DNA of 64,000 nucleotides, from assembly GCF_001550375.1 (NCBI RefSeq), contig NZ_LRTR01000807.1:1-64000 (forward strand), given 5' to 3'. Below are positions 15,232 through 26,933 of the stretch, piece by piece. This stretch comes from Streptomyces europaeiscabiei. Lineage in GTDB: Bacteria; Actinomycetota; Actinomycetes; Streptomycetales; Streptomycetaceae. Each line of letters begins with the position of its first letter. The stretch's first letter is position 1. A program made the translations under genes and the position numbers. The notes under the pieces were generated by a model, which was not told where the DNA came from, did no database searches, and saw only the letters and a program-made list of their open reading frames with translations.

Positions 15232-16106
15232 CTATGCGGCGGGGCGGAGTGCTGTCAGGGGACTGGTGCGGGTGCGGGCTCGTGGTGTGCTCGTGAGCCA
15301 GGCGTTGATCCGGATGAGGTTGACGGCGGCGCCGGCGAGCTGGTGCTGGAGGCTGGTCTTGGCCAGGCCGCGGTAGCGGGATGCGCGCAGGTCGCAAACC
15401 TGGACCGCCTGGGAGATGGTGCCTTCGACACCGGCGCGGATCTTGTAGCGAGCCTTCCAGTCGTCTGTGGCCTGGACAGCACGGGCCTGCTGGAGGGCGT
15501 GGTATTCCTCGCGGGGCCGCAGGCTGAGCTCGCGCTGGATTCCGTTGGGCGAGTTGATGCATCTGGCCCGGTCGAGACAGGACCGGCAGTGGGTCCGGGA
15601 GAACCGGACACGGATCATGGGCAGGCCCTCCTCGGAGCGGTTGACGCGCCACGACGTGGTCGTGTGCCCGTTCGGACAGGTTGCCTGCCCGCTGTCCCAG
15701 TCGATGGTGAACGCGTCCTGCGCGAACACGGCATCGCCGCGGGCGTGCGGGACGGTCACCGCCTTCACCGGCCCGTGGAGATCGCCCCCGTGATCACGCT
15801 GGGCTGCGGTGAGTGAGCCGGCGTTGGCATAGCCGGAATCGACCCGGTGCCCGCCTGGCGACAAGTCCCGCCGGGCCAGTTCCGTATGGACCGCAGCGGC
15901 CATCCGGTCGTCGGCGACGCCGGCGACGGTGGTGCACCTGCTCGTGACCGGACGGGGAGTGTCTTCGTCGCACGTTCCGGTGATGTGGACCTTGTAGCCG
16001 TCCCAGTTGATGTCGCGCTTCGCACCGCTGCGGGCTTCCAGGTCATAGGGGGTCACCAGGCGCATCACGCCCGGTGGTCGCTAGACCCCTTCGGCTGCAT
16101 CGACAT
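15232..16106 (-). pseudogene. IS1182-family transposase, N-terminal half deleted
   Basis: The readable part (15232-16068) encodes about 278 residues of the C-terminal DDE region. It includes LVTPYDLEARSGAKRD, GYKVHITGTCD, the stretch with HRVDSGYANAG, a Cys-containing insert (CRSCLDRARC) and the terminal helix RYRGLAKTSLQHQLAGAAVN. The region beginning MSMQPK (start 16106) resembles the usual IS1182 transposase N-terminus, but after about a dozen codons it hits a stop and is out of frame. The simplest reading is an internal deletion joining the first codons to the second half. An active enzyme cannot be made from this copy; the retained ends could be mobilised in trans. Confidence 0.75.
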
Positions 16107-21108: not shown

Positions 21109-21110
21109 AC

Positions 21111-21152
21111 GGCATCGGCATCGGCATCGGCATCGGCATCGGCATCGGCATC
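21111..21152 (+). repeat. (GGCATC)7 microsatellite just after the marR stop
   Basis: Seven perfect copies of GGCATC start three bases after the stop codon of the MarR gene. The hexamer keeps all frames open (in one frame it would read as repeating Gly-Ile), but no gene uses it here. Confidence 0.9.
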
Positions 21153-21279: not shown

Positions 21280-21502
21280 GCACGACCGCGTCACCACCAT
21301 GAGCAGTTGCATTCAGGCTGTGCGCTTCGAGCAGCTCTGCCACCTGGCGGCGGTGCGATGCCCGACCGTCGGCGAGGCCGCCGCGCTCATCGGACGAAGC
21401 GCACTTCGGACCAGGCCGGGGAGGACTCGTTTCCAGCAGAGGTCGAGGAGGGACCGGACCATGGTGTGGTGCACGCGCAGGTACGGCTGGTAGGAAGCCG
21501 AG

Positions 21503-21979: not shown

Positions 21980-22560
21980 TCGAAGGCAACCCTCGGCCCG
22001 TGGCACTCCAGCACGGCTCAGTACCCGCAGCGGGCCCGGTCAGGGTCTCCTCGTCCGCGACTTGGACGAGTTCGTCCGGGCCGATCTGGATGCGCCGCGC
22101 GATCAGCGTCACTCGGTCGGGCCGGATCCGCGACCAACTCCTGGATGAGCACGGGACGGAGGCTGCGACCTGTCGGTGGTACGGCCCCATATCTCCGACC
22201 GGCGTGGTCAGATATCGCTGCCGAGACCGGTCGGGGAAGGCCAGGTCCACGCTCGGCTTCGGCTTCGGCTTCGACGTCGACGAAGGCATCGGCGCCGCGG
22301 TGATCCACACCGAACAGCACTCTCCACCGAGCAACTCGCTCACCTCATGGCCAGGATGACAACCGCACCCCGATTCGGGCACGAGCGGCCCACGCCCGGG
22401 CAGAGGGCCGACTCCCCGCGAGGATCCGGCAGGCGCACAGTGATCTTTGCCACTAAACAGCTTAGTACATCAGTAGAAATCGCCCTCTCCCCCAGCGCGC
22501 CCCACGCCTCCTGGGTACTGTCGATGAAGCAGATCCAGATCGGTCAGTAACGGAGTCCGT
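21980..22560. other. Gene-free interval with a dyad at 22452-22466 before DUF6153
   Basis: About 580 bases. Open frames on both strands contain a GGCTTC repeat (22256-22273) but no recognised gene; a minus-strand stretch around 22060-22260 reads protein-like yet matches nothing I know. AT-rich DNA at 22440-22490 probably holds the promoter of the DUF6153 gene. It contains ACTAA-N5-TTAGT (22452-22466) continuing as GCTTAGTAC. That nine-base string recurs in the palindrome at 26205-26227 of the same island, hinting at a common regulator, possibly the BlaI/CopY protein. Confidence 0.45.
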
Positions 22561-23022
22561 GTGAAGGTGGGTTGGCGCGCACGCGCAGGAGGCGCCCTGG
22601 GGCGCCTGCTTCTCGTCGTCATGCTCGCTCTGGGCGTCTTCGCGATGCACAGCACGGGACATCCCAGCGAGTCGGCGCACTCCATCATGAGCACCGCGTC
22701 CCACTCGACCGCGACGGACACGACGGCTTCGGCCCACGACCCGATGAGCCCTCCCGCCGGCAGAGTCACCGGCGGCCAGGCCGCAGTTGCGTCGGAGTCG
22801 GAGTCGGCGTCCTCCCACCAGCCCGCAATGGCCATGGACATGCTGGCGCTCTGCGTGGCGGTCCTGCTCGGCACATGGGTTCTCACCGCGCTCCTCAAGT
22901 CGGCGCTCGCCCGCCATCAGGGTTGGCCGGCGCTGCTTCTCGCCCAGGTCGCCGCCGTGTCGCGACCCAACCGCCCGCCACGCGGACCCGATCCCACCCG
23001 CCTGTCAGTTCTGCGGCTGTAG
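22561..23022 (+). CDS. DUF6153-like Met/His-rich membrane protein
   Basis: This 153-residue protein starts with GTG (GGAG five bases upstream). An N-terminal TM helix (about 12-30) ends in FAMHSTGH. A long Ser/His/Met-rich extracytoplasmic loop follows (HPSESAHSIMSTASHS, HDPMSP, HQPAMAMDM), then a second TM helix (about 97-117) and a Pro/Arg-rich tail. From memory this layout is DUF6153. The many Met and His residues outside the membrane suit Cu(I)/Cu(II) binding. It is followed 94 bases later by the DUF305 lipoprotein. The copper role is inferred from composition and neighbours. Confidence 0.75.
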   Translation: MKVGWRARAGGALGRLLLVVMLALGVFAMHSTGHPSESAHSIMSTASHSTATDTTASAHDPMSPPAGRVTGGQAAVASESESASSHQPAMAMDMLALCVAVLLGTWVLTALLKSALARHQGWPALLLAQVAAVSRPNRPPRGPDPTRLSVLRL

Positions 23023-23116
23023 GCCGAACCGCTCTCGCGGGCGCGCATCACGCGCGGACCCGCGGCTTCGCCTGCTCCCAAACAGCCACAGAACCAACAC
23101 CACGAGGTGAATCGAC

Positions 23117-23752
23117 ATGACTGCCTTCACACATGCCCTGCGCCGCGGCACCGCCCGCCGCGCTGCCGCCGCGGGCGTCGTCGCGGCCGGCGCCCTGCTC
23201 CTCTCCGCCTGCGGCGATGACATGAGCGGTATGGACCACGGCAGCGCCAAGGCCTCGGAGTCCGCGGCCACGGAGGCCGGATCCGCCGACTTCAACGATG
23301 CGGACATCACGTTCGCGCAGACGATGATCCCGCACCACGAGCAGGCTCTGGAGATGGCCCGGCTTGCCGACGACCGGGCATCCGACACGAAGCTCAAGGA
23401 CATCGCCGGCAAGATCGAGAAGGCTCAGGATCCCGAGATCAGGACGATGAAGGGGTGGCTCAAGTCCTGGAACGAGCCGACCGACGTCGAATCGATGCCC
23501 GGTATGGACCACGGCAACGGCGACGGAATGATGTCCGACTCCGACATGGGGCACCTCGCGGCCATGAAGGGTGCCGAGTTCGACAAGATGTTCGCCGAGA
23601 TGATGATCGAGCACCACGACGGTGCCATCAGCATGTCCCAGGACGAGCGGAAGAACGGTGAGAACGCGGACGCCGTGAAAATGGCGGGCGACATCGTGAA
23701 GGGCCAGTCCGACGAGGTCGAGCAACTGAAGAGCATCCTCGACCGGCTCTGA
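23117..23752 (+). CDS. DUF305 family lipoprotein, probable copper-binding
   Basis: This 211-residue lipoprotein has a signal ending in lipobox LLSAC (Cys at about residue 32), so it is anchored outside the cell. The DUF305 domain is a ferritin-like helical bundle carrying paired metal-ligand motifs. FAQTMIPHHEQALEMA (about 72-87) and MFAEMMIEHHDGAISM (about 156-171) are visible, plus Met/His/Asp-rich linkers (GMDHGNGDGMM, SDSDMGHL). DUF305 proteins commonly accompany copper-resistance genes. It is co-directional with DUF6153 upstream. An imperfect GC hairpin near 23802-23836 may terminate it. Confidence 0.9.
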   Translation: MTAFTHALRRGTARRAAAAGVVAAGALLLSACGDDMSGMDHGSAKASESAATEAGSADFNDADITFAQTMIPHHEQALEMARLADDRASDTKLKDIAGKIEKAQDPEIRTMKGWLKSWNEPTDVESMPGMDHGNGDGMMSDSDMGHLAAMKGAEFDKMFAEMMIEHHDGAISMSQDERKNGENADAVKMAGDIVKGQSDEVEQLKSILDRL

Positions 23753-23884
23753 GCATCCCCGGCGCGAGCGGACCGGTCGGCTCGCGCCGCCACACCGCGC
23801 GTCCGGGGCCCGCAGCACTCACGCTGCGGGACCCGGGCAGCTCCCTCATCGGCGCACCGACCGCACCGACCCGGCCAAGCCTGG

Positions 23885-23938
23885 CTGTGGCTGTGGCTGT
23901 GGCTGTGGCTGTGGCTGTGGCGTGACCGTGACCGTGAC
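23885..23938 (+). repeat. (CTGTGG)6 followed by (CGTGAC)3
   Basis: Six perfect CTGTGG hexamers (23885-23920) run directly into three CGTGAC hexamers (23921-23938), in the gap between the DUF305 and BlaI genes. This is another hexamer microsatellite in an intergenic region. Confidence 0.9.
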
Positions 23939-24078
23939 CGGCATGGCGATCACAGCCTTCAGGTCCGGGCCGCTGCCCCCGTTGCCCGCCGCCCTCGCGC
24001 GACTCACTGCGCAGGTGGGCCATCTACTATGCCCTTGCGTATTCAAGTGCGGGTCGGCGGCGAAGGGGAGTCAGGGCC

Positions 24079-24447
24079 ATGCGACGGCTGGGGGACCTGG
24101 AGGCGGAGATCATGGACCGCCTCTGGACGTGGCACCGTCCGGCGACGGTGCGCGAGGTCGTGGACGACATCAACAAGACCCGTCCCGTCGCGTACACCAC
24201 GGTGATGACCGTGACCAACATCCTTTACAACAAGGGATGGTTGCTGCGGGGCAAACAGGGACGCGCCTGGCTCTACTCTCCGGTGCGCAGCCGTGAGGCG
24301 TATGCCGCCGCGCTGATGGAGGACGGCCTGGGCGCGAGCAAGGACCGACCGGCCGCGCTGGTCCACTTCGTCGAGAACATGACCGAGGAAGAGCAGGCCG
24401 CGCTGCGCAAGGCATTGCGTACCGTGGGACGACAGGCGAAGTCGTGA
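24079..24447 (+). CDS. BlaI/MecI/CopY-family repressor
   Basis: This 122-residue winged-helix repressor has the family pattern LGDLEAEIMDRLWTWHRPATVREVVDDI (helices 1-2, split here at about residues 5-32), then a recognition helix in AYTTVMTVTNILYNKG and a basic wing (GKQGRAWLYSPV). The C-terminal dimerisation helices follow. BlaI-type repressors control beta-lactamase, copper (CopY) or respiratory genes and are usually inactivated by the adjacent M56 protease. It overlaps that peptidase gene by 4 bases (GTGA). TACTAT at 24027 could be its -10. CopY-type CxC metal motifs are absent, so metal sensing would be indirect. Confidence 0.9.
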   Translation: MRRLGDLEAEIMDRLWTWHRPATVREVVDDINKTRPVAYTTVMTVTNILYNKGWLLRGKQGRAWLYSPVRSREAYAAALMEDGLGASKDRPAALVHFVENMTEEEQAALRKALRTVGRQAKS

Positions 24448-25355
24448 ACGCGGCTCCCTCTCTCGTCGCCTACACGGCGCTCGTGGGCTTCGTCGCCCCA
24501 CGCCTCCTCCTGCGGGCCGACTGGCCGCACCGGGCACCCGCCCTGGCCGTGGCGGTCTGGCACGCCCTGGCCCTCTCCTTCGCGCTCGGTACCGCACTGA
24601 CCGCGTACAACCTGCTCATGCCCACGGAGCACTCGCACGAGGGGCTGTTGGGTCTGCTGCATTCCTGCGGCCTCGACATCGGCTCCGGCGGGTCCCGTCC
24701 CGACACCGCGGGCCGACTCGCCGCGGCCCTTCCCGCGGCGTTCGGGGTCGCCCTCACGGGAAGTTTCATCTTCCATGTCGTGCGGGCCCGTCGAGCGCGG
24801 TCCAGGCACCGGGAGGCGGTGGACCTGGTGGGCCGCCGCTCCGCCCGGCTGGGCGCCACCGTCCTGCCGTACGACGTGCCCGCCGCCTACTGCCTGCCCG
24901 GCCGCCGGCCCAGGATCGTGGTCAGTGACGCGGCCGTACGGGAGCTGACCCCCGAGCAACTCGCGGCCGTTCTGGAGCACGAACGGGCCCACATCGCCGG
25001 CCGCCACCATCTGGCACTCGCCGCCGCGGCGGCGTTCCACTCGGTCTTCCCCCGGCTCCCCCTGGCCCGCCTCGCCCGCGAACAGACGGCGCTCCTGCTG
25101 GAGATGGTCGCCGACGACCGTGCCCTGCGCGCCCACTCCGACGGGGTCCTGGCGACCGCGCTGTACGAGATGGCGGCGGCCCGGACCCCGAAGGGCGCGT
25201 TCGCCGCGGGTGGACAGACGGTTCTGATCCGGATGCGGCGGGTCCTCGGGCCCCGCAGGACTCCGCACCCCGCCTTCCGGGGCTCCATGGCCGCGGCAGC
25301 CGCTGCCGTTCCGCTGTTGCCACTGCTGGTCGCCTGCCCGCTCGGCATCGGCTGA
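24444..25355 (+). CDS. M56-family membrane metallopeptidase (BlaR1/MecR1-like, sensorless)
   Basis: This 303-residue protein has about four TM helices and a cytosolic zinc protease motif HERAH (residues 179-183; HExxH) in VLEHERAHIAGRHH. It lacks the C-terminal penicillin-binding sensor of BlaR1, as in most actinobacterial M56 proteins. It is translationally coupled to the BlaI gene by a GTGA overlap and presumably relieves BlaI repression when the membrane signal is received. The loop around residues 60-90 has His-rich PTEHSHEG and Cys (LHSCG), possible metal ligands. The signal is unknown; the surrounding copper-type genes suggest a metal or envelope cue. Confidence 0.88.
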   Translation: MNAAPSLVAYTALVGFVAPRLLLRADWPHRAPALAVAVWHALALSFALGTALTAYNLLMPTEHSHEGLLGLLHSCGLDIGSGGSRPDTAGRLAAALPAAFGVALTGSFIFHVVRARRARSRHREAVDLVGRRSARLGATVLPYDVPAAYCLPGRRPRIVVSDAAVRELTPEQLAAVLEHERAHIAGRHHLALAAAAAFHSVFPRLPLARLAREQTALLLEMVADDRALRAHSDGVLATALYEMAAARTPKGAFAAGGQTVLIRMRRVLGPRRTPHPAFRGSMAAAAAAVPLLPLLVACPLGIG

Positions 25356-25454
25356 CGCATTCCTACGGGGTTGGTGTGGCACGACCGCGAGGACTGACGA
25401 CGGAGGTCAACCAGGATTGACACGAACAGCCCGGTCGTCGAGGGACGTTCACCG

Positions 25455-26156
25455 TCAGGTGGCCATCATCACCAGCATCGTCGCCATCGGGCCGCCCATG
25501 CCGATGTGGCCGGCCAGGCGCACGTTCGGTACGGAGAACACCCCGGGGGTCCGGGGCGCTCGGCGGTGACGGGCCCTCCGGCCCGCCGGAGCGGGTGATC
25601 CGCCCGCGTCCCGCATCCAGGCACGTACGGCCAGGGCCACGTTGACCAGGAAGTAGGCGGCCAGAGACCAGAAGGCGACACGCCACAGCAGTGCGGAACC
25701 CGAGGTGGCGGCGGCTTCGGTCACGCCGTGGGCGCTCATGCCCTCCATCCCTGCCATGGCCCCGTGCCCGTGCCCGGAAGAGCCGGCCAAAGCGAGCACC
25801 GGCCCCGATGCGGCGCCGGGCATGGCCAGCGTCATCAGCACCATGGCGGCGTTGCCGATCACCAGATGAGCGGTGTGCCGCAGATGCCGCACACCGCGCA
25901 GGGTGGCGTTCCGTACGGACAGGGCCACGCCCCCGAGACAGAGCGCTGCGAACAGCGCCGCCCACCACATGCCGTACGTCCCGTAGAGAACCGCTGTCGG
26001 AGGCGCCGCCATCACGGCCATTCCCCCGCCCATCACGGCCTCGGCCCCCGCTTCGAACCGGGCCCAGCCGCTGACCAGTGCCATGCGCACGAGGTTCCCG
26101 ACGGCCACCCCCGTGCCCAGCACCACGAGCGTCCAGCCCAGAAAGTGTCCCGTCAC
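25455..26156 (-). CDS. DUF5134 family Met/His-rich membrane protein
   Basis: The 233-residue polytopic protein has about five to six TM helices. It carries Met/His clusters facing one side: MGGGMAVMAA, SSGHGHGAMAGMEGMSAHG and the C-terminal HIGMGGPMATMLVMMAT. These are candidate copper ligands; the family is DUF5134, often found near copper genes in actinobacteria. The start is GTG at 26156 with AAGGGTAG upstream. Its promoter faces the palindrome CTACGTAC-N7-GTACGTAG and, further out, the CsoR-type operator, so control by one or both is likely. It is divergent from DUF4396. Confidence 0.82.
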   Translation of the reverse strand: MTGHFLGWTLVVLGTGVAVGNLVRMALVSGWARFEAGAEAVMGGGMAVMAAPPTAVLYGTYGMWWAALFAALCLGGVALSVRNATLRGVRHLRHTAHLVIGNAAMVLMTLAMPGAASGPVLALAGSSGHGHGAMAGMEGMSAHGVTEAAATSGSALLWRVAFWSLAAYFLVNVALAVRAWMRDAGGSPAPAGRRARHRRAPRTPGVFSVPNVRLAGHIGMGGPMATMLVMMAT

Positions 26157-26204
26157 GTCGCTACCCTTCGCGGGGGCCGGGGTCGGCTCACCCCTCGTCG
26201 ACTA

Positions 26205-26227
26205 CTACGTACCTGCTTAGTACGTAG
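26205..26227. promoter_or_regulatory. BlaI/CopY-like palindromic operator upstream of DUF5134
   Basis: CTACGTAC (26205-26212) and GTACGTAG (26220-26227) form a perfect 8-bp dyad with a 7-base spacer CTGCTTA. BlaI-family operators are typically TACTACA/TGTAGTA-like, and the left arm extends as TACTACGTAC. It lies about 50 bases from the DUF5134 start. The adjacent GCTTAGTAC string also occurs before DUF6153. Confidence 0.65.
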
Positions 26228-26294
26228 CGGACGAGGATCCGACTCAGAGGAGTGCGCTTGGCATCCTGAACGAAGGGCCGAGCAATACTCGCCT

Positions 26295-26313
26295 TATACC
26301 CCCCAGGGGTATA
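26295..26313. promoter_or_regulatory. CsoR-type copper operator
   Basis: TATACCCC-CCA-GGGGTATA is a perfect 8-3-8 dyad 57 bases upstream of the DUF4396 start. The TACCCC/GGGGTA G-tract palindrome is the known recognition signature of the Cu(I)-sensing repressor CsoR in Mycobacterium and Streptomyces. No csoR gene is in the window, so the repressor would act from elsewhere. Confidence 0.85.
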
Positions 26314-26369
26314 GCCTGTCGGTGAATCGACGGGCAGGTCAGCACTGACGAGAATGGGGATGAAAGGGA

Positions 26370-26933
26370 ATGGACCACAGCGCTCACCCGGACGGCGCCG
26401 CGCACGACCACGCCACCGGCGAAAACCGCCAAAGCCACACCGGCCACACCGGCCACGTCGATCACTCCGACCGCGGGACACCCGACGGGGGGCACGGCGG
26501 CGCGTCCTGGCCGATGGCGGCGAAGGCTACGCTGCACTGCCTGACCGGGTGCGCCATCGGCGAGGTCCTCGGCATGGTCATCGGCACCGCCCTGCGCTGG
26601 GGCAACGTGCCGACCATGGTTCTGGCCATCACCCTCGCGTTCGTCTTCGGCTACTCGTTCACCCTGTTCGCGGTGCGGCGGGCCGGTCTGGACTGGAAGA
26701 GCGCGATCAAGGTGGCCCTGGCCGCCGACACCGTCTCGATCGCCGTGATGGAGCTGGTCGACAACGCGATCATCGCCCTCACCCCGGGAGCGATGGACGC
26801 CCATCTCGACGACGGACTGTTCTGGTCGGCCCTCCTGGGCGGGTTCGCGGTCGCCTTCCTGATCACCACGCCGGTGAACAAGTGGATGATCGGTCGCGGC
26901 AAGGGACACGCCGTCGTCCACGCATACCACTGA
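26370..26933 (+). CDS. DUF4396 family membrane protein with His-rich N-terminus
   Basis: The 187-residue protein starts with about 48 cytosolic or exposed residues packed with His, Asp and Gly (MDHSAHPDGAAHDHATGE, HTGHTGHVDHSD). Four TM helices of DUF4396 follow, with a Cys in CLTGCAIGEVLGM and a short tail containing HAVVHAYH. The His-rich leader is a likely copper-chelating arm. The start has GATGAAAGG upstream. A CsoR-type operator covers its promoter, so induction by copper is predicted. DUF4396 proteins are often fused or linked to copper ATPases; here it stands alone, divergent from DUF5134. Confidence 0.88.
   Translation: MDHSAHPDGAAHDHATGENRQSHTGHTGHVDHSDRGTPDGGHGGASWPMAAKATLHCLTGCAIGEVLGMVIGTALRWGNVPTMVLAITLAFVFGYSFTLFAVRRAGLDWKSAIKVALAADTVSIAVMELVDNAIIALTPGAMDAHLDDGLFWSALLGGFAVAFLITTPVNKWMIGRGKGHAVVHAYH

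Follow-up and report, generated by a model that had tools for sequence, protein, structure and literature searches.

THE ISLAND AND ITS GENES

A 64,000-nucleotide stretch of the genome of Streptomyces europaeiscabiei (NCBI RefSeq assembly GCF_001550375.1, contig NZ_LRTR01000807.1, positions 1 to 64,000), here called the window, contains an island of six genes spanning 22561-26933. A BlaI/MecI-type repressor and an M56-type membrane metalloprotease lie there together with members of the DUF6153, DUF305, DUF5134 and DUF4396 families. The genes are:

22561-23022, + strand: DUF6153 protein, two predicted hydrophobic segments and an MHSTGHP motif
23117-23752, + strand: DUF305/CopM-family protein (Pfam PF03713, 166 bits)
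24079-24447, + strand: BlaI/MecI-type repressor (Penicillinase_R, 88.8 bits)
24444-25355, + strand: M56-type membrane metalloprotease with an HExxH motif (Peptidase_M56, 27.0 bits, under the cut-off)
25455-26156, - strand: DUF5134 membrane protein with the stretch HGHGAMAGMEGM (Pfam, 78 bits; four hydrophobic segments)
26370-26933, + strand: DUF4396 membrane protein with a His-rich N-terminus and an HCLTGC motif (Pfam, 150 bits)

The start of the M56 gene overlaps blaI by 4 bp, and the DUF5134 gene, the sole gene of the island on the - strand, is divergent from that of DUF4396. An initial annotation of this DNA had placed and named the six genes in the same way, and the Met/His motifs that it quoted are found in the translations. 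It had also pointed to the Met/His density of the four DUF proteins, and indeed their combined fractions of Met and His (0.098 for DUF6153, 0.118 for DUF305, 0.116 for DUF5134 and 0.112 for DUF4396) exceed those of the 52 other called window genes of more than 90 amino acids, the lead of DUF6153 being marginal (highest other value 0.097). As the annotation stated, no copper ATPase, chaperone or oxidase is recognized nearby: models for CopA, CopZ, CsoR, multicopper oxidase, Sco and PCuAC gave no match in the window. Other parts of the 10.5-Mb genome do contain a copZ-copA pair and csoR, accompanied by CsoR-type boxes. The annotation mentioned no operators. The description of the families as little known was inconsistent in number (five in its heading, four in its text) and does not hold for DUF305, the family of CopM.

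The DUF305 protein scores 97.2 bits on the NCBIfam CopM model NF049983, passing the curated cut-off of 90, and its best relative of solved structure is CopM (5ffa, E = 1.5e-22). It has two HH motifs and, as judged by eye, a lipobox LSAC, and is probably a CopM-type lipoprotein. CopM of Synechocystis is described as a periplasmic, copper-induced, copper-binding protein (PMC4335983). The DUF6153 protein of the window lies just under the cut-off of Pfam PF19650 (25.6 against 27.7 bits), and a different DUF6153-type protein, in the relative L055, reaches 28.5 bits. The two genes form a recurrent pair: in 20 of the 24 cases counted, DUF305 comes after DUF6153 on the same strand and less than 400 bp away. 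Our literature search, thin on subscription journals, found nothing on DUF6153 or DUF5134; in the literature searched DUF4396 appears once, where it borders a metal cluster, and a search on DUF305, copper and actinobacteria brought up only a phage paper.

TWO CLADES OF M56 PROTEINS

How common are such switches in Streptomyces? Some match to the M56 protein was found in 119 of 121 Streptomyces genomes, and the matches listed fall into two groups. The nearer has at least 36 matches at ~41% identity or more, in at least 31 genomes; the second is a very common paralogue of ~31-38% identity. From 161 M56 loci (the window, 40 first loci, 80 named loci and 40 controls) we drew 143 representatives of less than 93% identity and placed them on a tree; representative families were checked with Pfam. 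There are 101 proteins in clade A and 38 in clade B; L151, L152, L158 and L162 fell in neither and were dropped. Clade A divides into 57 core, 17 CsoR-associated and 27 distant members. Eight of its 101 loci extend over less than 12 kb, and neighbours may have been overlooked there.

Of the 101 clade-A loci, 99 have a BlaI gene no more than 3 kb from M56. In clade B none turned up up to a distance of 4.5 kb. Copper genes were counted as CopA with CPC, CopZ, CsoR, Sco, PCuAC, multicopper oxidase and DUF305, and at least one is present within 3 kb of M56 in 57/101 clade-A against 1/38 clade-B loci (Fisher p = 9e-10, uncorrected for relatedness). When DUF305 is excluded the figures are 32/101 and 0/38. 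Some relatives of the BlaI/M56 pair adjoin copZ-copA-csoR. Over the same 3 kb DUF6153 occurs in 19 of the clade-A loci, DUF5134 in six and DUF4396 in five.

DUF5134 lies within 2 kb of M56 in 35 of 38 clade-B representatives, mostly ~1 kb upstream, and for this reason may be a partner of M56 proteins in general. A small MerT-like membrane protein, scoring below cut-off, is encoded near DUF6153 or blaI at L059:10514-10987 and L280:26426-26980.

A COMMON OPERATOR-LIKE ELEMENT

In relatives of the island a common 20-bp element, approximately TACTAA-N5-TTAGNAGTA, precedes DUF6153 and DUF5134. Its counterparts in the window, ranked with a position weight matrix (PWM), are:

22451-22470, + strand: putative BlaI operator before DUF6153-DUF305, CACTAAACAGCTTAGTACAT; PWM rank 1 or 2 in six versions
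24022-24041, - strand: weaker putative BlaI operator before blaI; PWM rank 3 in three versions
26203-26222, - strand: putative BlaI operator before DUF5134, TACTAAGCAGGTACGTAGTA; PWM rank 1 or 2 in six versions

The six versions were built from 17 sites of other genomes, from 13 with the two nearest relatives left out, or from nine DUF6153 sites only, each in direct or palindromic form. All of them find the same top two places in the 64-kb window, at 22448-22451 and 26203 when overlapping hits are merged. The place near blaI, at 24022, is third in three versions and fourth in one, and lies outside the best nine in two. The operator core ACTAANNNNNTTAG occurs once in the 10.5-Mb genome, at the DUF6153 site.

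The score level of 8.1 was derived from 273 random 280-nt stretches, and it is supported by matched clade-B controls. Taken from clade B by itself, the 99% level is 8.0 for stretches of 500 nt, 8.5 for 450 nt and 7.2 for 280 nt, and 14 of 1,434 tiles of 500 nt score above 8.1. Random stretches pooled from clades A and B have higher 99% levels, 26.6 (500 nt) and 14.4 (450 nt), because the clade-A loci hold further strong sites. When each locus was left out of the matrix used to score it, near relatives being kept and DUF305 matches under 60 bits dropped, 16 of the 18 DUF6153-DUF305 operons in clade-A loci scored above 8.1. These operons lie upstream of blaI in the same direction, divergently from it, or convergently downstream. 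Positive loci that contributed no training site are L048 (whose site is identical to that of L105), L134, L154 and L160. The DUF305 genes of clade B score above the level in 0 of 16 cases.

The stretch upstream of blaI itself scores above 8.1 in 44 of 86 clade-A loci. These promoters were not part of the training set, but L115, L055 and L142 share training sites, and L061 and L110 share the stretch with an NlpC/P60 gene; the NlpC promoters and plasmid pI, considered below, also lie outside the training. A further 28 places in clade-A loci score above 18 at more than 4.5 kb from M56, and the BlaI regulon is therefore probably larger than the set of DUF6153-DUF305, DUF5134, blaI and NlpC/P60. 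Strong operator-like sites lie ~7-7.6 kb from M56 in L064, L066, L125, L130, L138 and L143, members of the copA-csoR subclade.

CANDIDATE SENSING RESIDUES IN THE M56 PROTEIN

The best solved relative of the BlaI protein is 2g9w, followed by MecI and penicillinase repressors. Its partner falls below the gathering cut-off of 31 for Peptidase_M56 (PF05569), yet the HExxH motif is present (residues 179-183), and annotated plasmid relatives are named M56 in eight of nine records. H179, H183 and E220 are invariant across 139 aligned proteins. The AF2 model has a pLDDT (predicted local distance difference test score) of 87.7, and its best Foldseek match is BlaR1 of Staphylococcus aureus; the match is weak (E = 0.017, probability 0.99, TM-score 0.33), and none was found at E = 0.001. 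The protein has 303 amino acids and ends just after the fourth transmembrane helix (TM4), and thus it lacks a C-terminal penicillin-binding sensor domain. Candidates for a different kind of sensing site are:

24630-24668, + strand: codons H63, H65 ... C75 in the TM2-TM3 loop of M56; putative metal-sensing residues, predicted extracytoplasmic
25335-25337, + strand: codon C298, the C-terminal Cys after TM4; putative metal-sensing residue

Among the 57 core proteins H63 is found in 54, H65 in 56, C75 in 56 and C298 in 57, and the whole HxH...C plus C-terminal Cys set is complete in 52. In the 38 clade-B paralogues H65 occurs once and H63, C75 and C298 never, so that the set is complete in none. 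A BlaR1-like topology would place the four residues all outside the membrane, and we predict that they form an extracytoplasmic, putatively metal-sensing site.

DUF4396 AND THE CsoR REGULON

The DUF4396 gene is preceded by a regulatory element of a different kind:

26297-26311, no strand assigned: CsoR-type operator TACCCCCCAGGGGTA before DUF4396; perfect match, fits the TAC-N9-GTA rule

That rule is followed by the CsoR sites of Streptomyces lividans (PMC3902906). The genome has four perfect matches to TACCCCNNNGGGGTA, this box included. A further two are neighbours of copZ-copA and of a YtkA-like gene; the box of csoR has one mismatch. The fourth perfect place (G000:C923:10257-10271) lies in a stretch without a match to the copper models used.

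DUF4396 scores above cut-off in 88 of the 121 Streptomyces genomes. We analysed 70 of 106 matches in order of score, the 30 best and the 40 that follow them, leaving aside the window's own gene and that of G108, both of which have perfect boxes. The box before DUF4396 is perfect in 60 of these 70 loci (27/30 and 33/40) and has at most one mismatch in 65 (30/30 and 35/40); the flanks of the best 30 loci, 74 kb in all, hold no perfect box and a single one with one mismatch. Given this conservation upstream and near absence from the flanks, DUF4396 is probably a regular gene of the CsoR regulon across Streptomyces. Its predicted structure has a pLDDT of 47, too low to be used.

The same box does not generally accompany the switch. 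Before blaI it is found in none of 51 core and none of 25 distant loci, even when two mismatches are allowed. In the CsoR-associated subclade (n = 10) it is perfect in two loci, has at most one mismatch in four and at most two in six. General control of blaI by CsoR was dropped as an explanation, the boxes being confined to that subclade. In L066 and L138 a perfect CsoR-type box stands directly before blaI-M56.

PLASMIDS AND A PUBLISHED COPPER PHENOTYPE

Plasmid pI of Streptomyces mirabilis P16B-1, which was outside the training, carries the same group of genes in the form DUF6153-DUF305 / BlaI-M56 / P-type ATPase / HMA / DUF5134. The top three operator places in its 36 kb precede DUF6153 (26378), DUF5134 (33940) and a hypothetical gene adjoining M56 (28384). 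On plasmid pFRL4 the top-scoring places stand before a lipoprotein gene and an NlpC/P60 gene; the former is a strong operator-like site (L276:12705-12724, score 28.2) ~26 bp before a Lipoprotein_15 gene, which is a possible further target. In two other plasmids the best place lies before an NlpC/P60 gene. A second BlaI/M56 pair of pI, beside a multicopper oxidase, is accompanied by operator-like sites at L278:14193 (27.7), 16099 (20.1) and 6992 (18.7), in the vicinity of genes for cytochrome c biogenesis, TlpA and helix-turn-helix proteins.

A fragment of pI carrying hoxN, returned to a cured strain, is reported to have improved growth on CuSO4, and the copper tolerance is credited to hoxN (PMC9195940). 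On pI (L280) the primers labelled for hoxN lie at 21423 and 27119. The 5.7 kb between them contain hoxN, DUF305, DUF6153 with its putative operator, the MerT-like gene, two further genes and part of a third; they end within blaI, of which only the first part is included, and hold no M56 gene. Judging from the primer labels, the fragment tested probably also holds DUF6153-DUF305. The effect on growth could come from DUF6153-DUF305, from hoxN or from the two together, and the tolerance credited to hoxN may stem from neighbouring genes. The 'copY' of the same paper would be a CsoR-family gene if its locus tags run five above those of RefSeq, a shift suggested by the tags of copZ and hoxN.

OTHER FEATURES OF THE WINDOW

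There are two perfect tandem repeats of hexamers, at 21110-21152 (CGGCAT, 7.2 copies) and 23882-23921 (TGGCTG, 6.7 copies), the second of which sits between DUF305 and blaI. A transposase-like open reading frame (ORF), recognized by eye, lies at 15232-16068 on the - strand, ~6.5 kb before the island.

DISCUSSION

We propose, with a probability of about 0.6, that the island is an extracellular-side copper-defence unit run by a BlaI/M56 switch that has no sensor domain. The gene set, the operator-like sites and the conservation of clades and residues are matters of sequence comparison; what we infer for S. europaeiscabiei is binding to DNA, the sensing of a metal, proteolysis and the binding of copper. 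BlaI would use the shared 20-bp operator to repress DUF6153-DUF305, DUF5134 and the operon to which it belongs. The M56 protein would sense copper outside the membrane by means of H63, H65, C75 and C298, metal binding would activate its cytoplasmic HExxH protease, and cleavage of BlaI would release the repressed genes, whereupon the DUF305 protein and the DUF6153 protein would bind copper at the cell surface. Since DUF4396 is probably a member of the classical CsoR copper regulon, the island would be wired both to a sensor outside (M56/BlaI) and to one inside (CsoR). Related switches appear to control an NlpC/P60 hydrolase, so that remodelling of the cell wall may also form part of the response. 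We regard the putative regulon as real and conserved, and copper as its probable signal. More tentatively, and at rather less than even odds, we suggest that a widespread, sensor-domain-less actinobacterial M56 protein is itself the copper sensor, its extracytoplasmic HxH...C and C-terminal Cys binding Cu(I) and directly driving transmembrane signalling and the cleavage of BlaI, beside CsoR, and thereby linking copper stress to NlpC/P60 remodelling.

A number of observations weigh against this proposal. The 17 training sites were chosen by eye from the stretches upstream of DUF6153 and DUF5134, and 12 of the 16 positive DUF6153-DUF305 operons belong to loci that supplied them. Lone DUF305 genes near a clade-A switch score above 8.1 in 0 of 17 cases, and on pFRL4 the five best places include none above 12.3 between DUF6153 and blaI. 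The contrast in neighbourhoods is reduced when the distance is extended to 4.5 kb, where copper genes are present in 63/101 clade-A and 14/38 clade-B loci, those of clade B being all DUF305. Within 3 kb, 20 of the 57 core loci have a copper gene only, 11 copper and NlpC/P60, 19 NlpC/P60 only and seven neither; NlpC/P60 is thus present in 30, of which 19 are without a copper marker. Neither a copper marker nor NlpC/P60 accompanies 16 of the 27 distant clade-A loci. The set of His and Cys residues was spotted by eye in the alignment and, while confirmed for the core clade, is limited to it: the 17 CsoR-associated proteins keep H65 (16), C298 (17) and in part C75 (5), with H63 in none, and the 27 distant proteins keep only C75 (25/27), with C298 in none. 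The loop that would hold the HxH is weakly modelled (pLDDT blocks of 53-60 in the TM2-TM3 region). Lastly, the phenotype of pI is confounded with hoxN.

The strongest competitor is an envelope stress switch, in which BlaI/M56 would sense damage to the cell envelope rather than copper and control exported proteins generally, NlpC/P60 in many strains and DUF6153-DUF305 and DUF5134 in others. Classical BlaI/BlaR1 senses beta-lactams, and the NlpC/P60 genes themselves speak in its favour. Counting up to 3 kb from M56, 31 clade-A loci have 32 such ORFs, and the stretch upstream scores above 8.1 in 29 and above 14.4 in 25, compared with 16 of 1,585 clade-B tiles of 450 nt above 8.1. From these 29 sites the BlaI/M56 switch probably has cell-wall targets too. 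Clade-A pairs beside an NlpC/P60 gene that has an operator-like site upstream, with the surrounding 3 kb free of copper markers, are seen in L045, L052, L054, L056, L098, L101 and others. Against envelope damage as the signal stand the lack of a penicillin-binding sensor domain, the enrichment of copper genes near clade-A M56, and the conserved HxH/C/C set, which with its predicted position outside the membrane fits a metal better. The set is moreover complete in 17 of the 19 core loci that have NlpC/P60 only, and this suggests one signal for the copper and the NlpC/P60 targets. On balance we regard the envelope explanation as a live rival, though the less likely one, at something like a quarter of the weight of belief. 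A beta-lactamase regulon was rejected: the protease has no sensor domain, and the clade-A loci yielded a single beta-lactamase-like ORF in a crude three-motif test.

Two further explanations would uncouple the protease from copper. The BlaI/M56 pair might be a passenger of Streptomyces metal islands and plasmids, regulated separately from the copper genes. Similar pairs do adjoin metal genes on linear plasmids, and many distant loci are without a copper marker; even so, common sites precede DUF6153-DUF305, DUF5134 and blaI in several arrangements and on the held-out plasmid pI, and we think such separate regulation quite improbable. Least probable of all, and hardly to be expected, is that BlaI senses copper directly in the manner of CopY with M56 incidental. 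The two repressors are of one superfamily and there is a weak match to CopY_TcrY, yet on that model (TIGR02698) BlaI scores 27.4 bits against a cut-off of 121.95. The cysteine motif of CopY is CxCxxxxCxC, which BlaI cannot have because it contains no Cys. Furthermore, the M56 gene overlaps blaI and the pair is kept together throughout clade A, with the two exceptions given above. Direct sensing of the CopY type was rejected on the absence of Cys and the low model score.

Returning to a copper-responsive BlaI/M56 unit, control by the pair, as first proposed in the initial annotation, is borne out to the extent of the shared 20-bp sites. The link to copper that it drew from Met/His patterns is strengthened by the CopM model, the clade-A neighbourhoods and the CsoR-type box, and copper is the probable signal. 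Co-occurrence with BlaI/M56 in other genomes goes beyond chance for DUF305 and DUF6153; for DUF5134 and DUF4396 the counts are low, as noted earlier. The annotation had also set the island apart from the cytoplasmic copper circuit, a separation that is not supported in view of the CsoR-type box of DUF4396 and of relatives beside copZ-copA-csoR. Nor is a protease-controlled BlaI acting with copper proteins a fresh theme in principle, because PetR/PetP of Synechocystis has already been published (PMC7896320). The annotation did not anticipate the NlpC/P60 hydrolases of the core loci.

The analysis puts forward a candidate regulon with a putative operator, residues of a membrane protease that may form a sensing site, and DUF6153 and DUF5134 as target families, and it assigns DUF4396 to the probable CsoR regulon throughout the genus Streptomyces. 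The detection of copper outside the cytoplasm is less clear in Gram-positive bacteria than sensing inside by CsoR and CopY. If the more tentative suggestion above is true, Gram-positives would have a switch for outside copper beside the cytoplasmic CsoR, tying copper stress to the cell wall.

RELATION TO KNOWN SYSTEMS

Our searches on BlaI, M56, copper and actinomycetes, thin on subscription journals, found no description of this system by title or abstract. Its elements have several known relatives. In the staphylococcal BlaI/BlaR1 and MecI/MecR1 systems the repressor family and the HExxH protease are shared, with the weak fold match to BlaR1, whereas the M56 protein of the island has no C-terminal sensor domain and its gene has other neighbours. 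CopY of Enterococcus and Streptococcus is, like the BlaI protein of the island, a member of the BlaI superfamily and is described as a copper repressor (PMC5772342). CopY senses copper itself and has a cysteine motif, which the Cys-free protein of the island lacks.

With CopM of Synechocystis the DUF305 protein shares its family, the HH motifs, export and the CopM model. In Synechocystis, as described, copM is part of the copMRS operon under CopRS, whereas in the island the DUF305 product is probably a lipoprotein and the putative site upstream is one for BlaI. The TAC-N9-GTA box of the Streptomyces CsoR regulon is here found before DUF4396; the sites named for S. lividans in the accessible part of the report are those of csoR, copZA1 and copZA2, and DUF4396 is not among them (PMC3902906).

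The closest likeness is to PetR/PetP of Synechocystis, in which a BlaR1-type protease acts on a BlaI-type regulator when copper is present (PMC7896320); a BlaI-type regulator with an M56-type protease in the copper response also appears in a review (PMC12292863). Both systems pair the gene of a BlaI-type regulator with an M56 gene and are linked to copper. PetR/PetP governs the switch between plastocyanin and cytochrome c6 (petE/petJ), while the putative sites of the island precede other genes. The mechanism by which PetP senses copper was, in 2021, deferred to later studies (PMC7896320), and the candidate residues of the M56 protein allow it to be put to the test in a protein of a related kind.

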